A stretch of 64,000 nt of DNA from Gemmatimonadaceae bacterium (GTDB taxonomy: Bacteria > Gemmatimonadota > Gemmatimonadetes > Gemmatimonadales > Gemmatimonadaceae). Shown one piece after another: positions 47,204 to 50,151 of the stretch. Every line of letters starts with the position of its first letter. Position 1 is the stretch's first letter. The notes below the pieces were generated by a model. That model did not search any database. It saw only the letters and a program-made list of their open reading frames with translations, and was not told the origin of the DNA. The stretch is taken from contig DASXKV010000003.1 in the NCBI GenBank assembly GCA_036496605.1, positions 1 to 64,000 on the forward strand, given 5' to 3'. Position numbers and translations under genes: made by a program.

Positions 47204-47995
47204 TCAGGACGACGCCAACAACTCCGTGAACGATCTCAATTCGCTCGCGTTCAAGTCCGACACCACCCAGCGCTCGACACCACGACTTCGCCAGTGAATC
47301 ATGTTGTAGCCATTCGTCGCGGTCACTCCGAGCGGAGCGTCGCCAAGGCGGGTGGGCCATGAGAACACGTTGATCAGGTGCTGCCTCCGGCTGTAGACGA
47401 CGACGGCGACCGGCCGTCCGCCCACGTAGTCGACACGACCGCCGACGAGCGGAAAGCCCTGCTCCTCGAGGCGTGGCACGTTCGGCGAGTAGTCCAATCG
47501 CCCGTTGAACCAGGGCTTCACATTGTGCTGATCCGACGATCGGACGTCCGTAAGATGGTCCGGCATCAATGATCGGACGTGGCTCGCCAGCACGTCAGCC
47601 GCGACATCTGGCGTCGACGTCCGTCCGCGCGACGCGAGCAGCGTGATCCCGCTGCCTAACGCGGCACTCACGAGCAGCGCCGCGGCGATCCCGCCTTGCC
47701 AGACCCACGGGCGTCGACGGCGAGACGCCCCCCCTTCCGGCCGTGCCGCCGGTTCGGAGATGCTCGGCGTTGCCGCAATCGCGGTGCGGACGCGCGCGCG
47801 CAGGACGTCCGGCGCCTGGTAACGCTCGAGATTCGCTCGCAGTGCGGCGATGGTTGCAAGGAGCGTCTCGTATTCCGCCGAGCATTGCATACAGGTCGTC
47901 AAGTGCTCGGCCACTTCTCGTGCGCGATCGGGCGTGAGCTCCCCATCGACATAGGCGCTGAGCGCTTCGTGCGTGCTGTGGAGTGCTTGACTCAT
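47204..47995 (-). CDS. Zinc-finger anti-sigma factor
   Basis: A 263-residue membrane protein that probably holds the ECF sigma factor encoded just upstream. The N-terminal anti-sigma domain has the zinc motif H-x3-C-x2-C (His31, Cys35, Cys38; HLTTCMQC). A single membrane helix spans about residues 100-122 (GGIAAALLVSAALGSGITLLA). The external part (about 125-263) has VSDLNASELRSFTELL at its end and beta-rich patches. ATG 47995 is 10 bp after the sigma gene's stop; the longer open frame overlaps the sigma gene. ZAS-type anti-sigmas release sigma on redox or envelope signals. Confidence 0.88.
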   Translation of the reverse strand: MSQALHSTHEALSAYVDGELTPDRAREVAEHLTTCMQCSAEYETLLATIAALRANLERYQAPDVLRARVRTAIAATPSISEPAARPEGGASRRRRPWVWQGGIAAALLVSAALGSGITLLASRGRTSTPDVAADVLASHVRSLMPDHLTDVRSSDQHNVKPWFNGRLDYSPNVPRLEEQGFPLVGGRVDYVGGRPVAVVVYSRRQHLINVFSWPTRLGDAPLGVTATNGYNMIHWRSRGVERWVVSDLNASELRSFTELLASS

Positions 47996-48005
47996 GTGTG
48001 TCACG

Positions 48006-48518
48006 TTAGGCAGAGCGCTTGAGCACGCGACGGAGCCGCTCGCGCGCTCGGGCGAGACGCGACATGACGGTGCCCACCGGCACACCGGTCACGCGCGCGA
48101 TGTCCTTGTACGAGAGCTCGTCGAGCTCGCGAAGCACGAGGACTTCGCGGAATTGCGCTGGGAGACGACCAAGCACGGCCTCGAGGCTCCCGCGGTCCGA
48201 GTCGTCTACGGCTCGTACGTCCGCGGCGTAGCGGCTGCTGGCGTCGAGTCCATGTAGCTCTTCGTCGAACGGGACGTGTTCCGCGTCGCGCCGCCCTCCC
48301 CGCCAGGTGTAGCAGCAATTCCTGAGGATCGTGAGCAACCACGCACGCTCGTCACCACCGCGAAAGCTCGCGTAGTACCGCCACGCGCGCAGATACGCCT
48401 CCTGCACTACGTCCTGCGCGTCGTGCTCATCACGCAGGAGATGGCGCGCAAGCGTGTACGCGTCATCAATCAGCGGAAGGACCGTTTGCTCGAAGCGTTC
48501 GTGAAGGTTCTGGCTCAA
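48006..48518 (-). CDS. ECF sigma factor
   Basis: A 170-residue RNA-polymerase sigma factor. Region 2 (about residues 15-85) has AYTLARHLLRDEHDAQDVVQEAYLRAWRYYASF; region 4 (about 112-165) has LPAQFREVLVLRELDELSYKDIARVTGVPVGTVMSRLARARERL (each read as adjoining patches). It lies in front of its anti-sigma gene and divergent from the phosphoesterase-cupredoxin gene. A promoter-like GGAATAA-N16-GTTTCT (48551-48579, minus strand) lies 33 nt before its ATG and has a mirror copy driving the divergent gene. Its stop TAA is part of the CCTAACG motif. Confidence 0.93.
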   Translation of the reverse strand: MSQNLHERFEQTVLPLIDDAYTLARHLLRDEHDAQDVVQEAYLRAWRYYASFRGGDERAWLLTILRNCCYTWRGGRRDAEHVPFDEELHGLDASSRYAADVRAVDDSDRGSLEAVLGRLPAQFREVLVLRELDELSYKDIARVTGVPVGTVMSRLARARERLRRVLKRSA

Positions 48519-48550
48519 GGCAGTTCAGATACAGGAAAGCCTACCTCTAT

Positions 48551-48579
48551 AGAAACGCGAATCGAGGCGGATTTATTCC
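48551..48579 (-). promoter_or_regulatory. Putative ECF promoter of the sigma/anti-sigma genes
   Basis: Read on the minus strand: GGAATAA (48579-48573), 16 nt, GTTTCT (48556-48551). The GGAA-type -35 is usual for ECF promoters. The identical -35, the same 16-nt spacer and GTCTCT occur on the plus strand at 48595-48623. Confidence 0.6.
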
Positions 48580-48594
48580 GGCGGGTGCTTTTTT

Positions 48595-48623
48595 GGAATA
48601 AGCCCGAAGGCTCGGGGGTCTCT
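48595..48623 (+). promoter_or_regulatory. Putative ECF promoter of the phosphoesterase-cupredoxin gene
   Basis: GGAATAA (48595-48601), 16 nt, GTCTCT (48618-48623); the start codon is 41 nt downstream. The two -35 elements form the inverted repeat TTATTCC-N15-GGAATAA. The spacer holds a small hairpin CCCGA/TCGGG. Confidence 0.6.
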
Positions 48624-48658
48624 GCTAGCACCGAGCACCTAGCACCTATCACCTGGCC
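48624..48658 (+). repeat. Five 7-bp repeat units in the leader of the phosphoesterase-cupredoxin gene
   Basis: GCTAGCA, CCGAGCA, CCTAGCA, CCTATCA, CCTGGCC follow directly after the promoter-like -10 and end 5 bp before the ATG. They take the place where a ribosome site would be expected; none is visible. Confidence 0.6.
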
Positions 48659-48663
48659 CTTCC

Positions 48664-49935
48664 ATGTCCAACTACATAACCAACGACTCGCACGAGGATG
48701 AAATCGACCGCCGAGGCTTCCTGAAGTGTATGGCCTGGGTCGGCACCGCCTCGCTCTGGGCGCTCAAAGGCGGCGTGCCGACCAGCGTCGCCATGAGCCA
48801 GCTCCGCGACCTCGACGACGTGACGAAGCAGAACATTCTCTTCGCCCAGATCAGCGATAGCCACATTGGCTTCAGCAAGGAAGCCAACAAGGACGTCACC
48901 GCGACACTTCGCGAAGCCGTCGCGAAGCTCAACGCCCTCCCGCGTCGGCCCGCGCTCGTCCTCCACACCGGCGACATCTCACAGTTGTCGCGCGCCGAGG
49001 AGTTCGACACGGCGGATCAAGTGCTCCGAGACGTAAAGACCGATCGCGTCTTCTTCGTTCCCGGGGAGCACGACGTGCTCAACGACAACGGCGCCTCGTA
49101 TCTCGCGCGCTATGGCAAGCCGCTCGGCGCAAGGGGCGGCGGCTGGTATTCGTTCGATCACAGCGGCGTCCACTTCATCGCTCTGGTGAACGTTCTCAAC
49201 CTCAAGGCCGGTGGCCTGGGCTCGTTGGGCGCCGAGCAACTCGACTGGCTGAGGCGGGATCTGCAAGGCATCTCGGCCAGCACACCGATTGTCGCCTTCG
49301 CTCACATTCCGCTCTGGACGGTCTATCCCGAGTGGGGATGGGGGACCGATGACTCCGAACAAGCGCTCTCGATGTTGCGACGCTTCGGATCGGTGACCGT
49401 CCTGAACGGCCACATTCATCAGATCATGCAGAAAGTCGAGGGCAACATTGCGTTTCACACCGCCATGTCCACCGCCTTTCCTCAGCCGGCACCCGGCACC
49501 GCACCGTCGCCCGGACCGATGAAGGTCGAGGCCGAACGACTGGGCAGCGTGCTCGGTATCACGAGCGTCAGCTACGTGCCCGGCCGCCATTCCCTCGCGA
49601 TCGTCGATTCGACACTCTCGGGTGAGATGCCGCCGATGAACATGGCGGGTGGCCAGCAGCCGTCGGCCCGCCGGACGCTGGATGTCGCGCCCAACCAGAT
49701 CGGGATTGATAACTTTGCATTCACGCCGACTCCACGCACTGTGAGCGTGGGTACCGAGATCACGTGGATCAATCGCGACGACGTCCCGCACGTCGTGGTC
49801 GACACGCATGGGTCGTTCAGCTCGAAGGTGCTCGACACGAATCAGCGGTACTCGCACCGCTTCACCACCGCTGGCACCTACGACTACTTCTGCTCCATTC
49901 ATCCCACTATGACAGGAAGAGTGGTCGTGACGTGA
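48664..49935 (+). CDS. Tat-exported calcineurin-like phosphoesterase fused to a cupredoxin
   Basis: A 423-residue protein. The N-terminus has a twin-arginine signal (DRRGFLKCM, residues 15-23). The phosphoesterase domain (about 55-275) shows QISDSHIG, LHTGDIS, VPGEHDV, FAHIPLW and GHIHQ, the metallophosphatase set, except that the usual GNHD is GEHD, which changes one metal ligand. The C-terminal 85 residues (about 338-423) are a type-1 copper domain: IDNFAFTPTPRTVSVGTEI, first ligand His in VPHVVVD, then YDYFCSIHPTMTG with Cys, His and Met ligands. Likely periplasmic. It is transcribed divergently from an ECF sigma/anti-sigma pair with a matching promoter and may be its target. Confidence 0.88.
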   Translation: MSNYITNDSHEDEIDRRGFLKCMAWVGTASLWALKGGVPTSVAMSQLRDLDDVTKQNILFAQISDSHIGFSKEANKDVTATLREAVAKLNALPRRPALVLHTGDISQLSRAEEFDTADQVLRDVKTDRVFFVPGEHDVLNDNGASYLARYGKPLGARGGGWYSFDHSGVHFIALVNVLNLKAGGLGSLGAEQLDWLRRDLQGISASTPIVAFAHIPLWTVYPEWGWGTDDSEQALSMLRRFGSVTVLNGHIHQIMQKVEGNIAFHTAMSTAFPQPAPGTAPSPGPMKVEAERLGSVLGITSVSYVPGRHSLAIVDSTLSGEMPPMNMAGGQQPSARRTLDVAPNQIGIDNFAFTPTPRTVSVGTEITWINRDDVPHVVVDTHGSFSSKVLDTNQRYSHRFTTAGTYDYFCSIHPTMTGRVVVT

Positions 49936-50028: not shown

Positions 50029-50151
50029 ATGAACTGGAAACTGATCCTTCAGCTTTCGCTGTTTGTTCTGGTGATGGGTGTGGCGACGGTGTTCGTCGTT
50101 CCGTCATCGATATCGCTGCCGTCGCATCCGCGACCCGTGACGAGCAGTTGA
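50029..50151 (+). pseudogene. Truncated small membrane protein gene (40 codons) ahead of ppk2
   Basis: ATG 50029 has AGGA upstream and opens with MNWKLILQLSLFVLVMGVA and TVFVVPSSI, the start of what looks like a small multi-span membrane protein, but it stops after 40 codons. The stop TGA (50149-50151) overlaps the TTG that I take as the ppk2 start. It may be a remnant joined to ppk2 by a deletion, or a working leader peptide for coupled translation. I know the N-terminal pattern only as similar to small four-span proteins; this is from memory, not a search. Confidence 0.5.

Follow-up and report, generated by a model that had tools for sequence, protein, structure and literature searches.

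Soil bacteria carry many ECF sigma factors, of which only a few have a known target or signal. The locus described here lies in a 64,000 nt stretch of DNA from a member of the Gemmatimonadaceae (contig DASXKV010000003.1; referred to below as the window), and raises the question of what reads the short interval between the genes of an ECF sigma factor and its anti-sigma factor on one strand and the gene of an exported phosphoesterase-cupredoxin fusion on the other. An earlier, sequence-only reading had seen in this interval two mirror-image promoters through which the sigma factor was predicted to drive both itself and the fusion gene. Comparison across homologous loci makes it very probable that the interval holds two divergent promoters, both read by the adjoining sigma factor, in a local, ECF26-like autoregulatory switch with an exported cupredoxin as its target. 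The features concerned are as follows.

47204–47995, minus strand: membrane anti-sigma factor, 263 aa, with a zf-HC2/ZAS domain at residues 1–75, a helix at 101–124 and an RseB-C-like periplasmic domain at about 160–263.
48006–48518, minus strand: ECF sigma factor, 170 aa, with regions 2 and 4 (Pfam) and a TTG start; the only close member in the genome.
48551–48579, minus strand: sigma-side promoter of the sigma/anti-sigma genes, predicted to be autoregulatory; −35 GGAATAA at 48579–48573, N16, −10 GTTTCT at 48556–48551.
48595–48623, plus strand: predicted target-side promoter; −35 GGAATAA at 48595–48601, N16, −10 GTCTCT at 48618–48623.
48664–49935, plus strand: Tat-signal metallophosphoesterase-cupredoxin fusion, 423 aa, with Metallophos at residues 60–253 and Copper-bind at 346–422 (Pfam).
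48697–48747, plus strand: twin-arginine signal region, residues 12–28, with an invariant Cys22.
48841–49422, plus strand: calcineurin-like phosphoesterase domain, with the motifs SDSH, GD, GEHD, AHxPLW and GHIH.
49699–49929, plus strand: type 1 copper (amicyanin-like) domain, with ligands H376, C410, H413 and M416.

The two boxes have the sequences and positions first claimed for them, and Pfam gives the neighbouring genes the identities that had been proposed (ECF sigma factor, zf-HC2 anti-sigma factor, and a Tat-signal protein with Metallophos and Copper-bind domains). The boxes share their −35 element and a 16 nt spacer, their −10 hexamers differ at one base, and 15 nt separate the two −35 elements. 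GGAATAA-N16-GTYTCT has no other match in the window and none in 100 dinucleotide shuffles of it (0 expected). The distances of 33 and 41 nt to the gene starts hold as coordinate differences, whilst the intervening nucleotides number 32 between the minus −10 and the TTG of the sigma gene (48518) and 40 between the plus −10 and the ATG of the phosphoesterase gene (48664). A consensus scan of 48400–48800 found neither a sigma-70 promoter nor a terminator.

Across the 5.97 Mb genome, the search for GGAATAA-N16-GTYTCT proposed at the outset again returned only this divergent pair. The looser GGAATAA-N16-GTY gave seven matches, where the reversed control pattern gave three, and of the five beyond the pair one precedes another ECF gene by about 100 nt and the others fall in or across reading frames. 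With these few loose matches and one close sigma factor in the genome, the regulon appears from sequence to be essentially local, and a large regulon was rejected on the same counts. The site before the ECF gene (C62:57164–57189; G000, L087) reads GGAATAA-N16-GTC, precedes a gene product of 34% identity, and may be a real, cross-regulated promoter.

A scan with the phosphoesterase yielded 80 loci (51–72% identity) in Gemmatimonadota, Acidobacteriota, Verrucomicrobiota, Armatimonadota and Pseudomonadota, to which plasmid records added Gemmatirosa, Caballeronia and Burkholderia, plus Actinomycetota, whose plasmid loci encode the cupredoxin and the phosphoesterase in two separate genes side by side. 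In 49 of 85 loci the 250 nt preceding the phosphoesterase gene contain GGAATAA-N15-17-GT[CT], compared with a mean of 0.09 and a maximum of 1 in shuffled sequences, and the same pattern preceded 11 of 483 other genes of those loci. The strict box is missing upstream of the other 36 phosphoesterases, and freeing the last base of the −35 raised the matches to 57 of 85. When 7-mers were counted in 78 upstream regions without reference to any motif, GGGAATA (56) and GGAATAA (55) ranked top, and the aligned motif shows a preference for CG on the 5′ side of GGAATAA, for A on its 3′ side and for G-GTCT at −10. Since the strict box was looked for and not found in the Actinomycetota loci, we claim the promoter for five phyla and not six.

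The order of the genes is variable, the sigma gene being divergent from the phosphoesterase gene, downstream in its operon, or elsewhere. Where the sigma gene heads its own transcription unit it has a box of its own in 25 of 36 loci, compared with 2 of 24 loci in which it forms part of the phosphoesterase operon (Fisher p 3e-6, computed on related loci with kinship ignored). On the best tree of the sigma factors the arrangement switched at least 16 times; a tree-aware version of the leader/follower test was not significant, three independent pairs on well-supported branches being too few for it. Comparison of the same region in relatives, as had been suggested, finds the box kept beside orthologues of both genes. 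The −10 element also varies with the sigma factor: in one Acidobacteriota sigma clade 12 of 12 boxes end in GTT, nine of them with a 15 nt spacer, whilst outside this clade GTC is present in 44 of 53 boxes and a 16 nt spacer in 51 (counts that ignore kinship). Such tracking of the −10 base and spacer with the sigma clade is expected if the adjoining sigma factor reads the boxes.

Natural deletions and substitutions bear on the same point. In one genome of the same genus (G399) the sigma (73% identity) and anti-sigma (66%) genes lie in the same synteny between an M20 peptidase and PPK2, and the locus has no phosphoesterase gene and no plus box, 167 bp standing in place of about 1.5 kb of the window in an otherwise collinear region; the sigma-side box is retained there as GGAATAG-N16-GTTCTA. 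G416 and G418, two genomes from a sister family, have the sigma gene divergent from a different gene via mirror boxes 2–4 nt apart, and the product of that gene has an N-terminal cupredoxin domain (PF13473, above cut-off) and no phosphoesterase domain. A mirror pair before another cupredoxin gene suggests, from these two genomes, that the cupredoxin and not the phosphoesterase is the common element of the target. At L144 (4297–5337) and L145 (3517–4608) an N-terminal cupredoxin is joined to an unnamed C-terminal part and encoded divergently from ECF26-like sigma genes, with boxes 2–4 nt apart. The phosphoesterase module is patchy in its distribution, being present in 5 of 31 sampled genomes with its own included, which marks it as an accessory trait. 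The proposal that the sigma factor drives itself and the phosphoesterase-cupredoxin gene accordingly has strong comparative support, from conservation, from the way the box follows the transcription unit, from −10 covariation and from the loss in G399; direct transcription by this sigma factor is what we infer from these observations.

Three other explanations of the boxes were weighed. The GGAATAA boxes of the window form a 12 nt inverted repeat whose arms are 83% complementary and 15 nt apart, as would suit two operator arms bound by a dimeric transcription factor and not promoters at all. Nine other divergent loci have such a mirror pair, with the −35 boxes 25–56 nt apart, and among the loci the arm-to-arm gap ranges from 2 to 56 nt, whereas each −35 is nearly always 16 nt (or 15) from its own GT; loci with a single operon have a single arm. 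Near-fixed spacing within each box and variable spacing between boxes indicate two promoters and not one palindromic operator, and a half-site followed by GT fits mapped ECF26 promoters (PMC6180224), so that we regard the operator as very unlikely. Chance resemblance, or a functionless palindrome derived from repeats, might be suspected from a 14-nt tandem duplication just downstream of the plus −10 and ahead of the phosphoesterase ATG (48625–48652; CTAGCACCGAGCAC / CTAGCACCTATCAC), but conservation across phyla that far exceeds both the shuffles and the other genes, with boxes kept beside orthologues, leaves this a negligible prospect.

The promoters could also be real and read mainly by another ECF sigma factor, the neighbour being incidental or cross-regulated in the manner of RpoE1, RpoE4 and RpoE6 in Sinorhizobium meliloti. 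The genome holds about 29 ECF-like genes, cross-activation among ECF26 members is documented (PMC6180224, PMC10880074), and in some homologous loci the box is present without a neighbouring sigma gene. Set against this, the closest relative of the window's sigma factor in the genome has 37% identity, the −10 base changes along with the sigma clade, and sigma and phosphoesterase genes have stayed neighbours across phyla through all the rearrangements counted on the best tree. We consider a reading mainly by another sigma factor unlikely, and retain the divergent double promoter read by the adjoining one.

The target protein combines three conserved parts. R16, R17, F19 and L20 are invariant and fit RR-x-F-L-K, predicting Tat export, and the signal, including Cys22, is conserved to the same degree as the active site. 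The phosphoesterase domain scores 50.1 against a cut-off of 21.5 for PF00149, with the DxH, GD, H and GHxH motifs all invariant, and the copper domain scores 36.9 against 21.2 for PF00127, with invariant H-C-H-M type 1 copper ligands. Block III is GEHD and not GNHD in 80 of 80 loci (L001–L080; residues 134–137, 49063–49074 in the window), whereas the Asn of GNHD is the usual metal-contacting residue of metallophosphoesterases; membership of the PF00149 fold is clear from sequence, and two-metal chemistry with GEHD is not clearly canonical. The model of the fusion is of moderate confidence (pLDDT 64) and its inter-domain contacts were left uninterpreted; rows from plasmid records were left out of the structure-model alignments. 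GpdQ of Enterobacter aerogenes (2zo9, 3d03) and the CpdA-type class III phosphodiesterases belong to the same fold family and share the metal motifs minus one, the Glu here aligning with the Asn of the GpdQ GNHD; unlike GpdQ, the fusion has a Tat signal and a cupredoxin. The complete H-C-H-M site is shared with amicyanin and plastocyanin, at 28–40% identity to amicyanins over the domain, and unlike the amicyanins the cupredoxin here forms the C-terminal part of an enzyme or is encoded in one operon with it, and is predicted to be controlled by an ECF sigma factor.

A cupredoxin fusion as the target, as first described, is correct for the window, whereas many loci use two adjacent genes or another cupredoxin protein. 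A separate gene for a cupredoxin is found close to the phosphoesterase gene in 33 loci, mostly as the next gene, and this conserved pairing, fused or adjacent, suggests that phosphoesterase and cupredoxin work together. A gene for a DUF2231 membrane protein is close to the phosphoesterase gene in 26 loci. A Mycobacteroides abscessus plasmid (L128, 21–5696) encodes in a row a Mo-oxidoreductase, an epimerase, an ECF sigma factor, a Rieske protein, a cupredoxin and a metallophosphoesterase, that is, the separate-gene form of the pair alongside other redox proteins.

The anti-sigma factor (Pfam zf-HC2; AlphaFold model pLDDT 86) has one predicted transmembrane helix. Its N-terminus is closest by sequence to RsiW and also resembles other ZAS domains (Z 7.2 to RsiW). 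For the periplasmic part, in which no Pfam family was found, RseB/MucB C-terminal domains are the best structural matches of the model, with RseB/MucB entries in the top six rows (Z 8.7 over 95 residues), and Foldseek gives them a probability of 1.0, yet an E of about 2e-3; the domain is predicted from the model to fold like the RseB/MucB C-terminal domain. It is the best-conserved part of the protein: all 50 anti-sigma homologues have H157, W162, H206 and D247, and 49 have H139. Both an RsiW-like N-terminus and an RseB/MucB-like C-terminal domain are on one polypeptide here, unlike in the RseB/MucB and RsiW envelope-stress systems, from which the invariant H157 and H206 also set the protein apart.

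The zf-HC2 domain is the usual class I anti-sigma fold. Its H-x3-C-x2-C motif and the matching fold are present here and the ligands are found in 46 of 50 homologues; in the other four the His/Cys ligands are replaced and the rest of the system is retained. The link once drawn between a copper/redox protein and a ‘zinc anti-sigma factor’ is functionally unsupported on this evidence, and sensing of zinc through this standard fold was rejected on the same loss of ligands, which makes zinc an unlikely signal.

In the mechanism that we propose, the membrane anti-sigma factor, with its RsiW-like zf-HC2 domain, single helix and RseB-C-like periplasmic domain, would hold the sigma factor until an envelope or redox signal frees it. 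Sigma-RNA polymerase would then fire the minus promoter, making more sigma and anti-sigma factor in a positive feedback with a built-in shut-off, and the plus promoter, making the exported phosphoesterase-cupredoxin. At its centre the module would have an exported cupredoxin, to which a GpdQ-like phosphodiesterase is usually joined, by fusion or as a neighbouring gene. As a more tentative and rather doubtful extension, it may act as an envelope copper/redox homeostat, in which the periplasmic H157, H206 and near-invariant H139 of the anti-sigma factor sense a metal or oxidant, and the cupredoxin, coupled to the GEHD phosphoesterase and often to the DUF2231 protein, removes the signal, with activity gated by the redox state of copper.

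The closest known systems are those of S. meliloti ECF26 sigma factors (RpoE4, RpoE1 and RpoE6; PMC3511301, PMC6180224, PMC6527743), which like the present locus use GGAATA(A), a 16 nt spacer and GT(CTCT). The ECF26 consensus is GGAATA at −35 and GT at −10, and the mapped S. meliloti rpoE4 promoter is GGAATAA-N16-GTCTCT (PMC6180224), identical to the plus box of the window at all 13 specified positions. The autoregulation of S. meliloti ECF26 factors and the position of their targets near the sigma gene are matched by the layout predicted here, and ECF26 anti-sigma factors are built in the same way, an anti-sigma domain at the N-terminus being followed by one helix and a C-terminal domain in the periplasm (PMC6180224). 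The system is filed as ECF26-like because its promoter and anti-sigma architecture fit this description; the window sigma factor has 30% identity to RpoE6 (pSymA), the sole S. meliloti member compared, on a long branch of unsure placement in the tree. A blue copper target also has precedent, since the sulfite dehydrogenase operon under RpoE4 control contains the gene of the pseudoazurin azu2 (sorT-sorU-azu2, RpoE4-EcfR4; PMC3511301), whilst the predicted target of the present system is a metallophosphoesterase together with a fused or adjacent cupredoxin, and no sulfite dehydrogenase was seen beside it. A 35 nt promoter query did not recover S. meliloti rpoE4 among 395 genomes of its family. 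P. syringae PSPTO_1043 and Brucella BcrS were ruled out as matching systems, their promoters being different.

The module has the look of a genuine small regulatory unit, conserved widely and apparently not yet studied; no description of it was found in the open-access literature, and the main ECF reclassification paper may hold a prior mention. It is small and portable, it occurs in at least five phyla and its promoter code is readable, so that one sigma protein would suffice for a direct test of both promoters. It also predicts the regulator of an uncharacterised family of exported cupredoxins and metallophosphoesterases and draws attention to a periplasmic domain unnamed in Pfam and, together with rpoE4-sorT-azu2, suggests that GGAATAA-N16-GT sigma factors repeatedly control exported blue copper proteins.

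Several further observations concern individual loci. In Acidobacteriota loci L019, L020, L022–L026, L029, L031 and L076 the phosphoesterase promoters share a variant form that hardly differs between them, GGAATAAAA-N15-GTTATC; most have no sigma gene of this type beside them, and sigma relatives (38–42% identity) lie elsewhere in the tested genomes. Counting against the double-promoter reading, five genomes with the phosphoesterase gave no sigma match at E 1e-25, and G398, of the same genus as the window, gave none at 1e-35, some of the genomes searched being incomplete. In G398 (L134, 1321–1392) mirror boxes 14 nt apart lie upstream of the phosphoesterase gene with no adjoining sigma gene, the minus box pointing at the end of a plus-strand gene. 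At the far side of the window's fusion gene, the start of a small membrane-protein gene (50029–50148; MNWKLILQLSLF...) is broken off just before PPK2, and a longer version of that gene, of about 158 aa, is present in a same-genus locus (L138/L146), a difference of roughly 300 bp.
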